Shown: positions 6,595 through 14,539 of the stretch, one piece after another
How positions within the stretch are numbered: position 1 is the first letter of the stretch
How the letters are laid out: each line of letters begins with the position of its first letter
Translations under genes and position numbers: made by a program
Source: Desulfobacterales bacterium
GTDB taxonomy: Bacteria > Desulfobacterota > Desulfobacteria > Desulfobacterales > Desulfosalsimonadaceae
Length of the DNA stretch: 18,487 nucleotides
Reading direction: 5' to 3'
Assembly: GCA_018224315.1 (NCBI GenBank)
Contig: JAGTVF010000319.1
Coordinates: 1-18,487 of the forward strand
The notes under the pieces: generated by a model
What the model was told of the DNA's origin: nothing
Databases searched by the model: none
What the model saw: only the letters and a program-made list of their open reading frames with translations

Positions 6595-6622
6595 TTGACA
6601 GATCCAGCCGGGACTGTTTAAT
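6595..6622 (+). promoter_or_regulatory. Strong sigma-70-like promoter of the paaK-liv operon leader
   Basis: TTGACA (6595-6600, perfect) and TTTAAT (6617-6622, 5/6) are separated by 16 nt. The predicted transcription start near 6629 leaves a leader of about 305 nt before the PaaK start codon. It sits directly after the crotonase stop, so the operon can be transcribed independently. Confidence 0.6.
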
Positions 6623-6683
6623 GTACGGACATCTGTTTTTTTCGGGATCCATTTTTTCAAAATTTTACAAGGTCGGCCAGCGC

Positions 6684-6761
6684 ATGAGACGAGCACCTGA
6701 GAATGCCGGTTTCGGGAACTTTTTTTTCTTTAAAAAGTCTTCCCATGGACCGGCGCAGTAA
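6684..6761 (+). CDS. Candidate phenylalanine-rich leader peptide
   Basis: A 25-codon reading frame starts at ATG 6684 and stops at TAA 6759-6761. It contains five Phe codons: one at 6711 and four in a row at 6720-6731 (TTT TTT TTC TTT), i.e. the peptide segment GFGNFFFFKK. AAGG lies 11 nt upstream of the ATG, a weak ribosome site. The frame lies in the leader of the paaK-liv operon. The Phe run ends 5 nt before the first arm of the terminator/antiterminator system, and the stop codon is 11 nt after that arm. This is the geometry of pheA- or trp-type attenuation. The alternative is that the T-rich tract is coincidental and the frame is untranslated. Confidence 0.4.
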   Translation: MRRAPENAGFGNFFFFKKSSHGPAQ

Positions 6762-6784
6762 AAAGCCAACCCGACGACGCAAAC

Positions 6785-6826
6785 AAGGCCATGGGAAGAC
6801 GCAAGCAGGTACCCATGGCCTTTTTT
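6785..6826 (+). terminator. Rho-independent terminator 1 (B:C)
   Basis: AAGGCCATGGG (6785-6795) and CCCATGGCCTT (6812-6822) form a perfect 11-bp stem with a 16-nt loop, and a T run continues to 6826. It is the regulated stem in the attenuator model. Confidence 0.65.
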
Positions 6827-6833
6827 CATGCCA

Positions 6834-6865
6834 AAAGGCTGTGGGTTTTCCCGCAGCCTTTTTTT
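6834..6865 (+). terminator. Rho-independent terminator 2 (D:E)
   Basis: AAAGGCTGTGGG (6834-6845), tetraloop TTTT and CCCGCAGCCTTT (6850-6861) form a 12-bp stem with one G-U pair, followed by T to 6865. This is a canonical strong terminator about 70 nt upstream of the PaaK start codon. Leader transcripts must pass it to express the operon, unless there is an unseen promoter after it. Confidence 0.8.
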
Positions 6866-6933
6866 ATGGGCAGGCACTTCGGGCCGGCTCAGCGGCTTGA
6901 TGAAAGAGCACACCACGCACAAGGAGGACAACG

Positions 6934-8235
6934 ATGATATATGACATCGAGTATGAAACCATGCCCCGGGAAGCCCTGGAATCCATCCAGCTGCGGCGGC
7001 TGCAGGCAACGGTTTCCCGGGTGTATGCAACAGTTCCGCATTACCGGAAAAAATTCGACCAGGCCGGGATCAAGCCTGGTGACATTCAGCAAATAGAAGA
7101 CCTGCAGCGGCTGCCTTTCACCATTAAGCAGGATTTGCGGGAAAATTATCCCTTTGGCATGTTTGCCGTTCCCATGGACAACGTGGTGCGCATTCACGCC
7201 TCCTCGGGCACCACGGGCAAGCCCACGGTGGTGGGCTATACGTCCCGGGACATCAACACCTGGGCCGAACTCATGGCCCGGGCGCTTGCCGCAGGCGGGG
7301 CCACCCGGGGCGATATCATCCACAACGCCTACGGATACGGACTGTTTACCGGCGGGCTGGGTGTGCATTACGGGGCGGAAAAACTCGGGGCCTCTGTAAT
7401 TCCGGTATCCGGGGGCAACACCAAGCGGCAGGTGGTGATCATGCGCGATTTTGCCCCGACCATACTCACCGCCACCCCTTCCTACTCCCTGCACCTGGCC
7501 GAGGCCGCCGAGGACATGGGGGTATCATTTCAGGATCTGAGCTTTAAATTCGGCATTTTCGGCGCCGAGCCCTGGTCCGAGAATATGCGGAAAGAAATCG
7601 AGGAAAAGCTCAATCTCTCGGCCGTGGATATCTACGGGTTAAGCGAAGTGCTGGGTCCCGGGGTTTCCATAGAATGCCACGAGGCCAAAAACGGCCTGCA
7701 CATCGCAGAAGATCATTTCATCGCCGAAATCATCGACCCGGTCACTGAAGAGGTCCTGCCCCACGGCCAGACCGGCGAACTGGTACTGACCTCCATCACC
7801 AAGGAGGCCTTTCCGGTCATCCGCTACCGCACCCGCGACATTACCAGCTTAAATCCCGAGCCCTGCATCTGCGGGCGCACCATGGTGCGGATGGACAAAA
7901 TCAGCGGCAGAACCGATGACATGCTCATTATCCGGGGGGTGAACGTGTTTCCGTCCCAGATTGAAAGCGTGCTCATGGAAATCGATGGCGTGGAGCCCCA
8001 TTACCAGATGGAAGTCGACCGCAAAGACAACCTGGACACTGTCACGGTCCGGGTGGAAGTCAGCCAGCAGATGTTTTCCGACGAGGTCAAGGAGCTCCAG
8101 CGCTTTGAGCAGCGCATTGAAAACGATATCAAGGAGCTGCTGGGCATATCCGTGGATGTCAAGCTCGCAGAGCCCAAAAGCATTGCCAGAAGCGAGGGAA
8201 AGGCCGCCCGGGTCATTGACAGGCGAAAGATTTAG
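6934..8235 (+). CDS. paaK: Phenylacetate-CoA ligase (PaaK family)
   Basis: A 433-residue AMP-forming acyl-CoA ligase, the usual PaaK length; it would convert phenylacetate or a related aryl acid, ATP and CoA to aryl-acetyl-CoA in the cytoplasm. The adenylation loop [14 protein letters not shown] begins at residue 90. The acid/AMP site shows [16 protein letters not shown] and IRYRTRD. The hinge-side motif is [20 protein letters not shown]. The C-terminal domain ends with [16 protein letters not shown], supplying the catalytic lysine (K423). A PCICG cysteine motif typical of the family precedes the hinge. The start has a perfect AAGGAGG 6 nt upstream. It heads an operon with an ACT protein and a Liv transporter; the ACT gene begins 32 nt after its stop. 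Aryl preference is a family inference. Confidence 0.92.
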
Positions 8236-8267: not shown

Positions 8268-8699
8268 ATGCAAGCCGAACAGATTTCGATTTTCCTGGAA
8301 AACAAAGCCGGCCGCCTATCGGAGGTAACCGGGATTCTCTGGCAGAATCAGGTCAACATCCGGGCGCTGGCCGTGGCCGACACAACCGATTTCGGCGTGC
8401 TGCGCCTGATTGTCGATGACAATGCAAAAGCCGAACAGGTTTTAAAAAATGCCGGGTTCACGGTGCGCAAAACCAAGGTGGTGGCCGTGGAAGTCGCAGA
8501 CCAGCCCGGCGGACTCCACAGCATCCTGGAAATGCTCTACAAATCCGGCATCAACGTGGAATACATGTATGCCTTTGTCCGCCAGAGCGGGGACAATGCT
8601 GTGATGATCTTCCGGTTTGACCAGCCGGAAGAAGCCATTGATGTACTTTCCCAAAACGGGGTGACCATCGTGGAAGGCGCGCGGCTCTATACCATGTAG
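8268..8699 (+). CDS. Tandem ACT-domain protein
   Basis: A 143-residue protein made of two ACT domains and nothing else: residues 5-66 ([18 protein letters not shown], then [10 protein letters not shown]) and 72-140 ([18 protein letters not shown], then [10 protein letters not shown]). ACT domains bind amino acids at dimer interfaces and usually control a partner enzyme. Stand-alone ACT proteins placed directly after paaK are a recurring arrangement, and the ligand is plausibly an aromatic or branched-chain amino acid. The D-x-P-G-G-L loop of domain 2 and E-N-K-A-G-R-L of domain 1 are the usual ligand-binding turns. AAAAGGAG lies 6 nt before the ATG. It may sense the transported amino acid and control PaaK or the pseudo-PaaK; this is inference. 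Confidence 0.88.
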
Positions 8700-8748: not shown

Positions 8749-9918
8749 ATGCGCTTTGTCAAAAAACACCGTCCCATTTTGCTGGCCGCAGCTTTGGTGA
8801 GCGCGGTTGTCTTTGCAGCCCATCCCGCTGCCAACGCCGATTCCGGAAAAAATCCGATAAAAATCGGCGGCATCTTTTCCGTTACCGGACCTGCGTCCTT
8901 TCTCGGCGACCCTGAGAAAAAATCCATGGAACTGGCCATTGAAGAAATCAATGCCGCAGGCGGCGTTGAGGGCCGGATGCTGGAGGCCGTTATCTATGAC
9001 ACCGAGGGTGATCCGTCCAAAACCGTAATGGCCGCAGGCAAACTCATCAACAAGGACCGGGTCACAGCGATTGTCGGTCCCAGCAGAACACCCACAACAC
9101 TGGCCGCAGTTCCCATGGTCGAGCGGGCGCAGCTGCCCTTTGTCAGCTGTGCGGCGGGCAACAAGATCGTCGAACCCATCAAGCCCTGGGTCTTTAAAAC
9201 CGCCCAGAGCGACATCCAGGCGGTTGCTACCATTTATTCCCACATTGAAAAACAGGGGATTGACAAGGTCGGCATCATCACCGTGGCCAATTCATTTGGT
9301 GAAAGCGGAAAAGAGCAATTGCTGCAGCAGGCCGGTGATTTCGGCATAACCGTGGTGCGCAGCGAAAGCTACGGCGCCAATGACACGGACATGACCTCCC
9401 AGCTCACCAAAATCCGTAAGGAAAAACCCGGGGCCATTGTCTGCTGGGGAACCAATCCGGGCCCGGCCGTGGTGGCCAAAAACATCGAGCAGCTCGGTAT
9501 TGAAATCCCGCTGTACCAAAGCCACGGCGTGGCTTCCCCGAAATTTATCGATCTGGCCGGAGATTCCGCCGAAGGCATACTGCTGCCGACCGGCAAAATC
9601 CTTGTGGCCGATCTGCTGCCGGATGACGATCCCCAGAAGCCGGTGCTGGCCGATTACATTGACGCCTATGAAAAAAAGTATGACGAAACGGTTTCCGGAT
9701 TCGGCGGATATGCCTATGATGCGGTTTACCTGCTGGCCCGTGCCATGGAAGGCACCGGGGGGGACAAAGAAAAAATCCGGGAAAACCTTGAAAACATCAA
9801 AAATCATGTGGGCGTCAGCGGGGTGTTTTCCTTTAGTCAAACCGATCACAACGGCCTGGATCCTTCGGCTTTTGTAATGGTGCGCATCACCGGCGGCAAA
9901 TGGCAGCTGGTGGAATAA
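8749..9918 (+). CDS. Periplasmic substrate-binding protein, Liv-type ABC transporter
   Basis: A 389-residue type I periplasmic binding protein of the LivJ/LivK family. A Sec signal peptide (basic MRFVKKHR, hydrophobic core, cut predicted after NA at residue 30) precedes mature IKIGGIFSVTGPASFLGDPEKKSMELAIEEINAAGGVEG, the hallmark opening of this family. IVGPSRTPTTLAAVPMVER contains the small-residue loop that binds the amino-acid backbone. There is no lipobox, so it is a free periplasmic protein. Family members bind branched-chain or aromatic amino acids, amides or aromatic acids; the specificity cannot be read here, but the paaK neighbours favour an aromatic ligand. It starts the transporter part of the operon (livH starts 24 nt later). 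Confidence 0.93.
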   Translation: MRFVKKHRPILLAAALVSAVVFAAHPAANADSGKNPIKIGGIFSVTGPASFLGDPEKKSMELAIEEINAAGGVEGRMLEAVIYDTEGDPSKTVMAAGKLINKDRVTAIVGPSRTPTTLAAVPMVERAQLPFVSCAAGNKIVEPIKPWVFKTAQSDIQAVATIYSHIEKQGIDKVGIITVANSFGESGKEQLLQQAGDFGITVVRSESYGANDTDMTSQLTKIRKEKPGAIVCWGTNPGPAVVAKNIEQLGIEIPLYQSHGVASPKFIDLAGDSAEGILLPTGKILVADLLPDDDPQKPVLADYIDAYEKKYDETVSGFGGYAYDAVYLLARAMEGTGGDKEKIRENLENIKNHVGVSGVFSFSQTDHNGLDPSAFVMVRITGGKWQLVE

Positions 9919-9942
9919 TCCGCCAATTCCGGGAAAAAACCC

Positions 9943-10818
9943 ATGCAGGAACTTTTGCAATACCTGTTTTCCGGCATGACCAACGGGGCTGTCTACGCGG
10001 TGATTGCCCTGGGGTTTTCCATGCTGTACAACTCCACGGACCTGATCAATTTCGCCCACGGGGAATTTGTCATGCTCGGCGCCCTGTGCATGGTCAGCCT
10101 GACAGCAGGTGCGGGCATTGCCCTGGTGCCTGCGTTTTTTGTCACCGTAGCGGTGGTGGCCGCAGCAGGGATGCTTTTCGAACGCCTGGCCATCCGGCCG
10201 GTACGGAATCCCCAACCCGTTGTGCTGATTATCATCACCGTGGGGGCCTCGATTTTTCTGCGGGGCACGGGCATGCTCATCTGGGGCAAAGATGCCCACA
10301 GCATCCCCCCGTTTCTCGATATTGCCCCCATTGACATCGCAGGCGCCCGGCTGCTGGCCCAAAGCGTATGGATTCTGGTGATTGTCACCGCCCTGACCGC
10401 CGGCCTTCACCTGTTTTACAAAAAAACACTCACCGGAAAGGCCATGACCGCCTGTGCGGTGAATAAAAAAGGGGCATGGATCGTGGGAATCCCCTTTAAA
10501 TGGATGGTGCTGCTGGCATTCGGTCTTTCCACCGGCCTGGGGGCCGTGGCCGGGGCCAGCATCGCACCGATTACCATGTCGAGCTACGACATGGGCACCA
10601 TCCTGGGGCTAAAGGGGTTCTGCGGGGCCATGCTCGGCGGGCTGGGCAGTCTCTGGGGGGCCATTCTGGGCGGCTTTCTGCTGGGAATCCTTGAGGCCAT
10701 GGGCGTGGGGTTTGTCTCTTCGGGATTTAAAGATGCAACCGCCTTTCTGCTGCTTTTGCTGGTCCTCTATGTCCGGCCGCAGGGCATCTTGGGCACAGCC
10801 GAGGTCAAACGGTTTTAA
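9943..10818 (+). CDS. livH: LivH-type ABC transporter permease
   Basis: A 291-residue inner-membrane permease with about eight hydrophobic segments. The N-terminal YLFSGMTNGAVYAVIALGFSMLYNSTDLINFAHGEFVMLGA is the strongly conserved LivH opening. The cytoplasmic coupling-loop region GKAMTACAVNKKGAWIVGI contacts the ATPases, and the terminal LGGLGSLWGAILGGFLLGILE is also typical. Its length is normal for the family. It forms a heterodimeric channel with LivM. The stop is followed one base later by the livM ATG. The ribosome site is weak, which fits coupling to the upstream binding-protein gene. Confidence 0.93.
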   Translation: MQELLQYLFSGMTNGAVYAVIALGFSMLYNSTDLINFAHGEFVMLGALCMVSLTAGAGIALVPAFFVTVAVVAAAGMLFERLAIRPVRNPQPVVLIIITVGASIFLRGTGMLIWGKDAHSIPPFLDIAPIDIAGARLLAQSVWILVIVTALTAGLHLFYKKTLTGKAMTACAVNKKGAWIVGIPFKWMVLLAFGLSTGLGAVAGASIAPITMSSYDMGTILGLKGFCGAMLGGLGSLWGAILGGFLLGILEAMGVGFVSSGFKDATAFLLLLLVLYVRPQGILGTAEVKRF

Positions 10819-10819
10819 C

Positions 10820-11776
10820 ATGAACGACAAATATCTGCCTGCAATCTATACAGCATTTGCCCTGGGCATTGCTTTTCTGGGATGGCGCATTGACAATGCC
10901 TATTATCTGCAGCTGCTGATTTTCATCGGCTTAAACACCCTGCTGGCCCTTTCCTTAAACATGCTCATGGGCTATGCCGGCCAGATATCGCTTGGACATG
11001 CGGCCTTTTACGGTATTGGCGCCTATGTGACCGCAATACTGACAACCACTTATCAGATACCGCCCGTACTGGCCCTTCCGGCGGCTGTTGGTGCGGCCAT
11101 GGTAATCGCCTGGATCGTTGGCATGCCCACGCTGCGGCTTTCCGGCTATTACCTGGGCATGGGGACTTTGGGATTTGGCATGATTGTCCATATCGTGCTG
11201 CGGGAATGGAGCAGTGTGACCGGCGGGGCATCCGGGCTTGTGGGAATCCCGCCTCTGTCGGTGGGCCCGGTTGAATTTGCCTCCAACAAATCCTACTTCT
11301 TTCTGGTATGGGCGGTGGTGCTGGCCGTGATCATCTTCTGCCGGCGCATCATCGACTCCCGGGTGGGCCGGGCCCTTTGCGCCATCCATGACGGGGAGAA
11401 AGCCGCGGCCGCCGTGGGGGTCAACACCCGGCGCTTAAAGCTGCAGGTGTTTGTTTTAAGCGCGGGCATTGCCGCTCTGGCCGGATTTCTCTACGCCCAC
11501 CTGGTGTTTTTTATCAGTCCGGGCAGCTTTGGTTTCATGGCTTCAATCAAAATTGTGACCATGGTGGTCATCGGCGGTATGGCCAGCATCTGGGGAGCGC
11601 TTTTCGGCGCATCCCTTCTCACCCTTCTGCCGGAATGGCTCCATGCCTTTTCGGAATTTGAGATGGTGGTATACGGACTGGTGCTCATGGTCGTGATGAT
11701 ATTCATGCCCCGGGGACTGACCCGGGGAGTGGTGGACATTTATGAACGGTACCGCAAAACCCATGACCGGCAGTGA
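10820..11776 (+). CDS. livM: LivM-type ABC transporter permease
   Basis: A 318-residue permease. LLALSLNMLMGYAGQISLGHAAFYGIGAYVTAIL is the diagnostic LivM segment; GRALCAIHDGEKAAAAVGVN is the ATPase-coupling loop; VVIGGMASIWGALFGASLL is the conserved C-terminal helix pair. The start at 10820 is one nucleotide after the livH stop; the frame is open further upstream inside livH, but that part lacks a plausible start. The gene ends 35 nt inside livG. No strong ribosome site is seen, so translation probably depends on coupling to livH. Confidence 0.92.
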   Translation: MNDKYLPAIYTAFALGIAFLGWRIDNAYYLQLLIFIGLNTLLALSLNMLMGYAGQISLGHAAFYGIGAYVTAILTTTYQIPPVLALPAAVGAAMVIAWIVGMPTLRLSGYYLGMGTLGFGMIVHIVLREWSSVTGGASGLVGIPPLSVGPVEFASNKSYFFLVWAVVLAVIIFCRRIIDSRVGRALCAIHDGEKAAAAVGVNTRRLKLQVFVLSAGIAALAGFLYAHLVFFISPGSFGFMASIKIVTMVVIGGMASIWGALFGASLLTLLPEWLHAFSEFEMVVYGLVLMVVMIFMPRGLTRGVVDIYERYRKTHDRQ

Positions 11777-12551
11777 CCCCATACTGGAGATCCGGGACGT
11801 GAACAAGGCCTTTGGCGGCGTCCAGGCCCTGGACCGGATCGGATTTAACCTGGAAAATGCCTCGATCACCGGATTGATCGGCCCAAACGGCGCGGGCAAG
11901 ACCACCCTGTTTAATGTGATCACGGGCATGTTGGCCCCGGATACAGGCGACATCCGCTTTGCCGGCCGATCCATTGAAAAACTGGAAGTCCACCAGCGGG
12001 TCGCCCTCGGCATTGCCCGCACATTTCAAAATGTGGAGCTTTTTGAAAGCATGACCGTGCTCGACAACATTCTGGTGGGCCTCTTTACCCGGACCCGGGC
12101 GGGTATGATTGCAAGCATGCTGCGCCTGCCCCGCACCCGGAAGGAAGAAACCCTGGCCCGGGACCAGGCCATGGAACTGTTAAACTTTGTGGGGCTTCAG
12201 GACTATGCCCATCGCAAAAGCGGGGACCTGCCCTTTGGGTGGCAGCGAATGCTGGAAGTGGCCCGGGCCATGGCAGCACAACCTCGCCTGCTGCTGCTCG
12301 ATGAGCCGGCAGCCGGCCTAAACATGGCCGAAACCGGCCATCTCGGAGAACTGATCAAAGAAATCCGCAGCCGGGGCATCACGATTCTGCTGGTGGAGCA
12401 CGACATGAGCCTGACCATGTCCATTTCCGATCATATCGTGGTGCTCGACCAGGGCGGAAAAATCGCCGAAGGCCCCCCGAGAGCGGTTCAGGCAGATGAG
12501 GCGGTCATGGCGGCCTACCTGGGCAAAAAAGCAACCCCGACAAAGGATTGA
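11742..12551 (+). CDS. livG: LivG-type ABC transporter ATPase
   Basis: A 269-residue ATPase. Walker A is GPNGAGKT (47-54), the Q-loop region includes ARTFQNVELFESMTV, the signature is LPFGWQRMLEVARAM, Walker B is LLLLDEPAAGLN, and the H-loop is LLVEHDM. LivG proteins often deviate from LSGGQ, and LPFGWQ falls in that range. The start at 11742 has GGTGG 6 nt upstream and overlaps livM by 35 nt; an ATG at 11763 lacks a ribosome site. It pairs with LivF to drive LivHM. Confidence 0.92.
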   Translation: MNGTAKPMTGSDPILEIRDVNKAFGGVQALDRIGFNLENASITGLIGPNGAGKTTLFNVITGMLAPDTGDIRFAGRSIEKLEVHQRVALGIARTFQNVELFESMTVLDNILVGLFTRTRAGMIASMLRLPRTRKEETLARDQAMELLNFVGLQDYAHRKSGDLPFGWQRMLEVARAMAAQPRLLLLDEPAAGLNMAETGHLGELIKEIRSRGITILLVEHDMSLTMSISDHIVVLDQGGKIAEGPPRAVQADEAVMAAYLGKKATPTKD

Positions 12552-12561
12552 CAAATCCCTT

Positions 12562-13302
12562 ATGCTGCGCATTCGCAATCTCAAATGTTTCTACGGCCGC
12601 ATCATGGCGGTCAAAGGCGTGAGCCTGTCGGTCAATGCCGGGGAAATCATCTGCCTGATCGGTGCCAACGGCGCGGGCAAGACCACGCTGCTTTCCGCCG
12701 TGTGCGGTCTGCTGGCCGACTGGACCGGGCAGATCGATTTTGAAAAAAAAAGCGTAAAAGGCATGGAACCCCCGGCCCTCGTGCGCGCCGGCATCAGCCT
12801 GGTCCCGGAGGGCCGGCAGATTTTTGCACCGCTTTCCGTGTTCGACAATTTAAAACTCGGGGCCTATACCATGTATAAGAAAAAGGCCCATGCAGCCGTG
12901 GAAGAAGACATGGAATCGGTAATGGAACTGTTTCCGATTCTGCGGCAGCGGCGGCGGCAGCTGGCAGGCACGCTTTCAGGAGGCGAGCAGCAGATGCTGG
13001 CCATTGCAAGAGCACTTATGGCCAGGCCCAGGCTGCTTTTGCTCGATGAGCCCTCCATGGGGCTGGCCCCCATGGTGGTGGAAAAAATCCTGGAAGTGAT
13101 TTCCCTGCTGCGCTCCCGGGGCCTGACCATCGTGCTGGTAGAACAAAACGCCCTGGCAGCCCTGGACGTCTCGGACCGGGGGTATGTATTTGAGACCGGG
13201 GCCGTGGTGCTCCAGGGGGAGGCCGGTGAGCTGCTGGCGGACAAGGATGTCAAACGCGCCTATCTGGGCAAGGATTATGGAGATTTTTACGATGCCGGAT
13301 GA
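12562..13302 (+). CDS. livF: LivF-type ABC transporter ATPase
   Basis: A 246-residue ATPase of normal LivF length. Walker A is GANGAGKTT, the signature is LSGGEQQMLAIARAL, Walker B is LLLLDEPSMGLAP, and the H-loop equivalent reads VLVEQNA with Q in place of H, as is usual in LivF. The start is the ATG at 12562, 11 nt after the livG stop, with AAAGGA about 14 nt upstream. The last 11 nt overlap the second paaK-like gene, so that gene is translationally coupled to the transporter. Confidence 0.93.
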   Translation: MLRIRNLKCFYGRIMAVKGVSLSVNAGEIICLIGANGAGKTTLLSAVCGLLADWTGQIDFEKKSVKGMEPPALVRAGISLVPEGRQIFAPLSVFDNLKLGAYTMYKKKAHAAVEEDMESVMELFPILRQRRRQLAGTLSGGEQQMLAIARALMARPRLLLLDEPSMGLAPMVVEKILEVISLLRSRGLTIVLVEQNALAALDVSDRGYVFETGAVVLQGEAGELLADKDVKRAYLGKDYGDFYDAG

Positions 13303-14539
13303 CCCCTTTTTTCATCTCTTAGCCGAAGAAAAGCAGCAGCTGCAGTTAGAACGGCTGCAAAGCACATTAAACCGGGCCTGCCGCCATGTGCCCTTTCATG
13401 CCAACCGCCTGGGCGTACTGGGCATCGAGCCCTCGGATATCTCCGCCCTGGCCGACATTGCCCGCCTGCCCTTCATGGAGCGGGCGGATTTCAGCGAGCA
13501 CTACCCCTATGATCTGTTTGCCGTGCCGTTGCGAGACATTGTCCGCATCCACACGGCCCCGGGCACAACGCGCAATCCCACGGTCAGCGGCTATACGGCA
13601 CAGGACCTGGGGCACTGGCGGCAGATTCTGGGCCGGGCCCTTCGTACCGCCGGCATCGGGACAAACGACATTCTCCAAATCGCCCTGAATCCGGGCCTGG
13701 CCAACTGGGGACGGGATTACAAGGACGGGGCCGAAGCCATCGGGGCCAGCGTAATTCCCAACACGCAGCTTTCAGTGGAAAAACAGTTGATGGTGCTTCG
13801 CGACTACAAGACCACAGTGTTGATCACCACCCCGGCCATGGCCGGCCACCTGGCCGATTACACGGCGGAAAAAGGCATGGGGCCGGCATCGCTTTCCCTG
13901 CACACCCTGGTTTTATGCGGAGAGTCCATTGACCCGGAATTCCGAAGCAGCATTGAAACCCGGCTGCATGTGCGCACATGGCTGCACTACGGGTTAAGCG
14001 AAATCCCCGGACCCGCCGTTGCCTTTGAATGCAGCGACCATGAAGGGCTCCACATCAATGAGGATCATTTTCTGGCCGAAATCATTGACCCGGAAACCCG
14101 GGAGGTCCTTTCGCCGGGCAGCACCGGAGAACTGGTGCTCACCACCCTCACCACCCGGGCCTTTCCCCTGATCCGTTTTAAGACCGGCGACCGTGCCCGG
14201 CTCCTCAAAGATCCCTGTTCGTGCGGCAGCACGCTTGTGCGCATGAAATGGGATTCAGAGCGCACAGACGATATCATGAACATCGACGGGGTCAATGTCC
14301 ACGGCAACCAGGCGGGATTTCATCTCAAAGAAATGATGGGAATGGATCCCCGGCGGGTTTCATACCGGGTAGCGCACCACCAGGGCCGCAAAGTGCTGGA
14401 AGTGCTCATGGAAATGAACGATGCCATATTTTCCGATGAAATCAAGGAGCTGGAAAAGCTGCTGCGCCGGTGTGAAAACCGGCTCCGGGAGAATCTGGGC
14501 GTGCCCGTGGCCATCCGCCTGGTGGAATCAAAGGGATAA
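13292..14539 (+). CDS. Degenerate PaaK-like protein (probable pseudoenzyme)
   Basis: A 415-residue PaaK homologue that aligns along nearly its whole length with the product at 6934-8235. The core is kept: HYGLSEIPGPAVAFEC, HINEDHFLAEIIDP, TGELVLTTLTTRAFPLIRFKTGD and PCSCGSTLVRM. Key adenylation features are lost. The loop SSGTTGKPT has become APGTTRNPT, GLFTGG of the acyl site has become GLANWG, and [11 protein letters not shown] has become ERTDDIMNIDG. The protein stops at IRLVESKG, before the S-E-G-K segment that carries the catalytic lysine in the first copy. No frameshift remnant of that segment follows. ATG 13292 overlaps livF and has GGAG 9 nt upstream. Likely roles are binding an aryl acid or acyl-AMP as a regulator, or partnering PaaK; this is inference. 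Confidence 0.8.
   Translation: MPDDPFFHLLAEEKQQLQLERLQSTLNRACRHVPFHANRLGVLGIEPSDISALADIARLPFMERADFSEHYPYDLFAVPLRDIVRIHTAPGTTRNPTVSGYTAQDLGHWRQILGRALRTAGIGTNDILQIALNPGLANWGRDYKDGAEAIGASVIPNTQLSVEKQLMVLRDYKTTVLITTPAMAGHLADYTAEKGMGPASLSLHTLVLCGESIDPEFRSSIETRLHVRTWLHYGLSEIPGPAVAFECSDHEGLHINEDHFLAEIIDPETREVLSPGSTGELVLTTLTTRAFPLIRFKTGDRARLLKDPCSCGSTLVRMKWDSERTDDIMNIDGVNVHGNQAGFHLKEMMGMDPRRVSYRVAHHQGRKVLEVLMEMNDAIFSDEIKELEKLLRRCENRLRENLGVPVAIRLVESKG

Follow-up and report, generated by a model that had tools for sequence, protein, structure and literature searches.

The paaK-ACT-liv operon of a Desulfobacterales bacterium (assembly GCA_018224315.1, contig JAGTVF010000319.1; the whole analyzed stretch of 18,487 nt is called the window below) is preceded by a leader that is, very probably, a ribosome-mediated transcription attenuator for phenylalanine. 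It is also likely that this attenuator has two terminators in series, both switched by one relay of six RNA arms. Leaders of the same design appear to precede numerous genes for aromatic amino acids in a large group of bacteria, most of them uncultured.

Leader anatomy and occurrence upstream of paaK

The leader is modelled as a chain of six arms, P and A to E, which are predicted to pair as P:A, A:B, B:C (terminator 1), C:D and D:E (terminator 2); positions are collected in Table 1. All 12 nucleotides of arm A (6737-6748) pair with 6789-6800 of arm B, and an 11-bp pairing of 6785-6795 with 6812-6822 is followed by a U-tract. The promoter, the 25-codon frame with Phe at codons 10 and 13-16, and the mutually exclusive A:B (12 bp) and B:C (11 bp) pairings, all claimed in a sequence-only reading of this DNA, were read in the letters as described, the promoter being conserved in relatives and both pairings covarying. 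The same reading placed the end of the Phe run 5 nt before arm A, which is correct, and the stop codon 11 nt behind this arm, where the distance is 10 nt; its predicted transcript ends, 6826 and 6865, agree with the two U-tracts. Upon folding, the region 6620-6870 is more stable than its own shuffles (z -3.3, matched by 0 of 200). A simple consensus scan of the window for promoters and terminators returned neither the leader promoter nor the two terminators. For the promoter, the scan rule asks for an A at position 2 of the -10 element, which is not present here; for terminator 1, the loop exceeds the limit of 8. The scan did report a terminator-like hairpin at 6696-6716, which overlaps arm P. 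Since the scan is blind to these elements, conservation was used as support.

Table 1. Features of the leader and of the downstream operon in the window
Feature	Positions	Strand	Description and basis
Promoter	6595..6622	+	TTGACA 6595-6600, N16, TTTAAT 6617-6622; direct reading of letters
Leader peptide ORF	6684..6761	+	MRRAPENAGFGNFFFFKKSSHGPAQ, 25 codons, stop TAA 6759-6761; direct reading
Regulatory Phe codons	6711..6731	+	Codon 10 (6711-6713), codons 13-16 (6720-6731)
Arm P	6705..6724	+	GCCGG (6705-6709) plus GGGAACTTTTT (6714-6724); MFE fold
Arm A	6737..6748	+	Alternative partners P / B
Arm B	6785..6800	+	Alternative partners A / C
Terminator 1	6785..6826	+	B:C hairpin 6785-6822, U-tract 6821-6826; -20.5 kcal/mol
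Arm C including first U's	6812..6824	+	Alternative partners B / D
Arm D	6833..6845	+	Alternative partners C (13 bp) / E
Terminator 2	6833..6865	+	13-bp D:E hairpin 6833-6862, U-tract 6859-6865; -21.7 kcal/mol
Phenylacetate-CoA ligase (paaK)	6934..8235	+	First gene after leader; Pfam; best NCBIfam match TIGR02155, 640.7 bits, cut-off 646.3
ACT-domain pair protein	8268..8699	+	Pfam ACT_8
Liv-type (HAAT) ABC transporter	8749..13302	+	Binding protein, two permeases, two ATPases; Pfam
Second PaaK-like ligase	13184..14539	+	Last gene of run; Pfam, under NCBIfam cut-offs

Among the proteins of 60 genomes (59 relatives plus the genome of the window), a search identified 45 paaK orthologs with at least 74% identity, and the upstream DNA was read for all of them, two regions (L007 and L020) being shortened by contig ends. 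The leader is present in 28 of the 45 upstream regions, the window included; no such leader was seen on reading the other 17. Of these 28 leaders, 27 (again including the window) carry an exact TTGACA 126-223 nt ahead of arm A, as compared to 1.4 expected from mononucleotide shuffles; the -10 elements are variable.

The second set comprised 80 named paaK orthologs (the best 80 of 271), which overlap the first set, and was searched using a covariance model built from 27 leaders. The leader was found in 44 of the 80, always on the coding strand and upstream of paaK, and the model had no other match at E 0.01 across 286 kb of named-ortholog DNA; 36 named orthologs gave no leader match to this model. 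The set is not independent, as 15 of the 44 leaders share a 40-mer with the model seed and 29 share none. Among the carriers are Desulfobacteraceae and Syntrophobacteraceae genomes, Desulfosarcina widdelii PP31 and Candidatus Desulfaltia; the genomes of Desulfosarcina cetonica JCM 12296, Desulfosudis oleivorans and Desulfocicer vacuolatum, also in the named set, have no leader match. The leader of Desulfosarcina widdelii PP31 (L254) contains just 3 Phe codons. The leader is confirmed as an observation beyond chance.

For the codon counts, the leader ORF was taken as the longest ORF, with ATG start first and GTG otherwise, and compared with shuffle controls. In the paaK class, 72 distinct leaders have an ORF, and the median number of Phe codons among them is 7 (range 1 to 12, the single one being in L092); at least three are present in 71 of the 72 and at least five in 60. 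Phe makes up 26.3% of these peptides versus 10.6% in shuffles. The peptides of distant families are very different and still Phe-rich (e.g. MKIRFFYFCFFRFFSGFYFKKSTHGRAI in L019), and a KKS-HG motif is conserved behind the Phe run in many leaders. With arm A at its fixed place in the model, 68 of 72 leaders have a gap of exactly 5 nt between the arm and the last Phe codon before it; when A was placed solely by its pairing with B, as was possible for 63, the gap is 5 nt in 47 and 5 to 7 nt in 57. The comparison of related leaders proposed in the sequence-only reading thus yielded arms with compensatory changes and Phe codons that are kept as the sequence varies, and none of the computable findings named there as speaking against an attenuator was made.

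Counted from the first base of arm A, the stop codon lies 22 nt downstream in 53 of the 72 paaK-class leaders and 28-44 nt downstream in 8. A subgroup (L010, L012-L015) has peptides ending 31-37 nt beyond the start of arm A; with such a late stop, a terminating ribosome should leave A uncovered.

Arm pairing and the proposed switch

Covariation was assessed by counting double-change cells in the aligned arms. The first 28 leaders contain 12 such cells for A:B, 11 for B:C and 17 for D:E, the 44 leaders of the second set contain 33, 17 and 33, and the 29 non-seed rows contain 22, 9 and 28, respectively; in every case, none of 500 shuffles reached the count. Paired cells in the 44 leaders amount to 95.6% (A:B), 95.8% (B:C) and 95.7% (D:E). 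The covariance model included A:B and 8 pairs of D:E; B:C and C:D are outside the model, and therefore their double-change counts are not fitted to it.

Pairing of C with D is kept in 95.2% of cells (28 leaders) and 93.4% (44 leaders), as compared to 36-52% in a slid control. Its covariation is weak: the double-change count was reached by 52 of 500 shuffles for 28 leaders, 1 of 500 for 44 leaders and 13 of 500 for the non-seed rows, and of the 7 double-change cells in the 44 leaders 5 are a single change in related rows, with C, D and E altered together. When C:D partners were exchanged between gene classes, the energy changed from -16.4 kcal/mol (native) to -14.8 (other class), with -7.9 for shuffled arms, a result that supports C:D in part; in every gene class, shuffled D arms equalled the native energy in 0-6% of trials. 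In the five loci of the DAHP synthase-prephenate dehydratase class, C:D is retained in a markedly different sequence (native -22.4 kcal/mol, -14.8 with a partner from another class).

With the arms as cut, native A:B has no advantage over shuffled arms in three classes, namely ADH synthase, 361-aa DAHP synthase and chorismate mutase-prephenate dehydratase (CM-PDT) (19 loci), perhaps because arm B was cut at the end of the terminator stem; this speaks against one switch shared by all classes. P:A gave no covariation signal in the analysis of 28 leaders, where 77% of its cells are paired. In 62 of 72 leaders, at least 8 of the 12 nucleotides of arm A find a partner upstream, the mean being 8.7 versus 4.5 for shuffled upstream sequence; shuffles reach the native value in about 21% of cases on average and in a third for the window. 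Arm B has a palindromic 6-nt core (6789-6794 in the window) in 105 of 145 leaders, as compared to 19.4 expected; it is mostly CCATGG and also CCCGGG or CCGCGG, and successive arms are nearly identical words; the excess is partly a bias, because the model was built on CCATGG leaders.

We folded the leader in three states, counting the RNA as free from 13 nt past the first base of the A-site codon; the fold model is partly built into the complementary arm chain, and the finished state omits A by construction. For the window, both terminators are in the fold with no ribosome and with a finished ribosome. A stall at Phe 10, 13 or 14 gives A:B and the 13-bp C:D with neither terminator, even at full length, and a stall at Phe 15 or 16 gives A:B and C:D until E is made, and both terminators thereafter. 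Across 142 loci, terminator 1 is in 111 and terminator 2 in 134 folds without a ribosome, and in 136 and 140 folds, respectively, with a finished ribosome. At least one stall codon yields A:B with C:D before E is made in 129 of the 142. By these computed folds and the spacing given above, the regulatory codons stand where a stalled ribosome would leave the antiterminator free. Full-length stalled folds for 1052 stall codons contain terminator 1 in 614 cases and terminator 2 in 939; since the terminators persist in most of them, the relay would have to act by timing.

The proposed switch is as follows. In an untranslated leader, P would hold A, leaving B:C and D:E free to form; transcription would then end at terminator 1, or at terminator 2 if RNA polymerase gets past the first. 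When Phe is plentiful, the ribosome would pass A to the stop codon and mask this arm during the emergence of B and C; both terminator hairpins, B:C and D:E, would then end transcription. When charged tRNA-Phe is scarce, the ribosome would stall on the Phe codons directly before A, with P inside the ribosome; free A would take B, the released C would take D in a 13-bp pairing that covers the U-tract of terminator 1, and E would be left without a partner, allowing RNA polymerase to read through into paaK-ACT-liv. Placing two terminators under one stalled ribosome would offer a simple means of reducing leakage. Translation of the peptide, the role of C:D and the response to Phe are the steps that we infer here. 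The three-arm scheme of the sequence-only reading stands with respect to A, B and C; arm P, the disarming of terminator 2 by C:D and the wider regulon were missing from it. Its interpretation as a Phe attenuator is supported, and the dependence on charged tRNA-Phe is one that we, too, infer.

Related leaders in front of aromatic amino acid genes

Searched with the leader model, 241 of 389 genomes from the order (E 0.001) and 105 of 395 from a phylum sample (E 0.0001) gave candidate matches, some of them at several places. A selection among the matches listed, 161 loci of which 160 are distinct, was inspected, and both hairpins with a U-rich tail (at least 3 and 4 T in 7, respectively) were placed in 147. 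Downstream genes were identified by NCBIfam and Pfam for representatives and by N-terminal motifs or BLAST for the others. The window's genome itself contains two further leaders, MHMADTYTGGTWFYYGYFYYFYATGLPVAR before an ADH synthase gene (L076, G000:C274:1260-1411, minus strand) and MQLHHCTGRQNNFFTRRFFFGFRSVHPAV before a DAHP synthase-prephenate dehydratase fusion (L077, G000:C266:2445-2584, minus strand).

The codon content of the leaders broadly matches the pathway of the gene behind. Shuffled leaders contain 6-13% Phe, 2-4% Tyr and 1-2% Trp. Phe predominates in the leaders of paaK (72 leaders; Phe 26%, Tyr 4%, Trp 0.6%) and of the DAHP-prephenate dehydratase fusion (5; Phe 23%, no Tyr or Trp), and is joined by Tyr in those of the Liv binding protein (7; Phe 27%, Tyr 10%) and aminotransferases (12; Phe 26%, Tyr 13%). 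Leaders of ADH synthase (10) have 19% Tyr, 14% Phe and 3% Trp, and those of type Ib DAHP synthase (22) have 16% Phe, 10% Tyr and 6% Trp. The CM-PDT leaders (3; Phe 22%, Tyr 13%) make an exception, their Tyr content not being predicted by a pure Phe rule. We take this match between codons and pathway as the best evidence for a translated peptide and for tRNA charging as the signal. Leader codon content also offers a cheap function prediction for poorly annotated operons; here it points to a part in Phe supply for a Liv-type transporter and a PaaK, which is testable.

BLAST assigned 8 of the 21 loci at first left without a class to DAHP synthase and 2 to the Liv binding protein; 5 more are trpE, LeuA, two metallo-beta-lactamase-fold genes and a TPR protein, and 6 are without class (L071, L141, L162, L177, L193, L197). 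Among the latter, the leader of L177 has no aromatic codons and is a misfit to the regulon.

Several individual leaders deserve mention. The sole trpE locus (L168:251-394) has a leader with WWW, perhaps a Trp version of the switch, and the DAHP synthase leaders L198 and L205 also contain WWW. The LLL-containing leader before LeuA in L202 may be a variant of the switch for Leu, or else an attenuator of separate origin. Both metallo-beta-lactamase-fold genes follow a Phe run, in L200 within the leader MMSLFHKSFFFFTFRRGSLMPL and in L187 within one of two competing frames, MKHGKFFFFFVFTRAHPCP. Phe/Tyr leaders precede a PLP aminotransferase in L126, L173, L194, L199, L204 and L208 (identified by NCBIfam PRK06836 in L126 and by N-terminal motif in the other five), and this leader content suggests that the enzyme may be an aromatic aminotransferase.

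Alternative readings, known attenuators and the role of the operon

A Phe attenuator could operate without the relay, with A:B governing terminator 1 alone, D:E being leaky or separately relieved, and C:D a by-product of look-alike arms. The weak covariation of C:D, the almost equal pairing of D arms from other classes and the presence of terminator 2 in the full-length stalled fold for most stall codons fit this view. We nevertheless regard it as unlikely: were terminator 2 constitutive, the operon would stay silent regardless of A:B, C:D is kept in nearly all cells at an energy that shuffled D arms seldom reach, and the DAHP-prephenate dehydratase class retains the pairing with different letters.

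Two readings dispense with an attenuator of this kind altogether. A TnaC-like arrest peptide, whose nascent FFFFKKSSHG would stall the ribosome in the presence of Phe or phenylacetate and so induce a catabolic paaK operon, would account for the KKS-HG motif, and paaK is usually catabolic. The conserved tail is, however, also the coding sequence of arm A, while the rest of the peptide varies, its Phe codons included, and a like design with other aromatic residues precedes biosynthetic genes, whose products would, under such an arrest, be made in greater amount just when already in excess; an arrest peptide therefore seems very improbable. It is harder still to credit that the hairpins are plain terminators serving the enoyl-CoA hydratase gene upstream, with a constitutive promoter next to them and no regulation. 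U-tailed hairpins do stand behind that gene, and T-rich DNA readily gives Phe codons, but the promoter is located upstream of the hairpins, A:B and B:C are mutually exclusive and both covary, and the spacing from Phe codons to A is near-constant.

Returning to the six-arm attenuator, we judge its topology to be of the his-leader type, except that the middle hairpin is itself a terminator. In the six-arm his leader of Escherichia coli and Salmonella, a stalled ribosome shifts three hairpins to two alternatives, and the arm chain and the shift from three to two hairpins are predicted to be the same here. Unlike in the his leader, the middle hairpin of the present leader has a U-tract (between hisL and hisG of E. 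coli K-12, the single U-run of at least five stands behind the last hairpin); codons, genes, sequence and phylum also differ. A Phe-rich leader peptide is shared with the enteric pheA and pheST attenuators, as would be the read-through at scarce charged tRNA-Phe; these have one terminator each and a biosynthetic or tRNA-synthetase target, unlike the two terminators and the paaK-ACT-liv target here. As in the E. coli trp leader, which has four arms and one terminator, ribosome position would select between mutually exclusive hairpins.

Excerpts of PMC1183508 describe an extra hairpin between the first hairpin and the terminator of the his leader and name pheA as an attenuator. Outside Gammaproteobacteria, as here, leader-peptide attenuators are described in excerpts of PMC1262725 (Actinobacteria) and PMC2965389 (Firmicutes); they belong to other lineages and amino acids, and these excerpts note no double terminator. 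PMC3766115 suggests a gammaproteobacterial origin of amino-acid attenuators and gives a Phe motif as absent from Rfam at that time. Within excerpts of PMC2965389 and PMC2864571 there is no mention of a Phe attenuator in such bacteria; those of PMC2864571 include a candidate RNA, 'Desulfotalea-1'. The Rfam search of the window gave a tRNA as the sole match at the gathering score, and only other families below their cut-offs were added at E ≤10; amino-acid leader families, T-box and riboswitches had no match in the window or in 12 related loci. The regulon is absent from Rfam. No attenuator for paaK or Liv genes, or for these bacteria, was found in open-licence PMC text, in line with the sequence-only reading, which knew of none described for a paaK/Liv operon.

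If the operon is turned on when charged tRNA-Phe is scarce, it should supply Phe and not serve degradation only. Uptake of Phe would fit the Liv-type transporter, as a speculation; the best NCBIfam matches of the transporter are LivH and LivG, both under their cut-offs. The second PaaK-like ligase probably has its true start within the ORF listed in Table 1. For PaaK, the regulation suggests, equally speculatively, an anabolic role in the conversion of phenylacetate to phenylpyruvate via an indolepyruvate-type oxidoreductase, an aryl-acid route known from methanogens. Tentatively, and with rather less confidence than in the relay itself, we propose that the supply of aromatic amino acids is controlled phylum-wide by one old homologous family of relays, each coupling two terminators, its arms A-E (often with a CCATGG core) being kept and its codons swapped per operon, and that this PaaK and the Liv-type transporter feed Phe synthesis or uptake (e.g. 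phenylacetate to phenylacetyl-CoA, phenylpyruvate and Phe) and not degradation.

Open-licence PMC text yielded nothing useful on aryl-acid Phe synthesis. A search for IorA as a sign of the aryl-acid route found none beside paaK in the window's genome, where the best match covers the model in part, scores below the cut-off and lies on a different contig; IorA matches are present in 60 of 60 genomes (45 above the cut-off).
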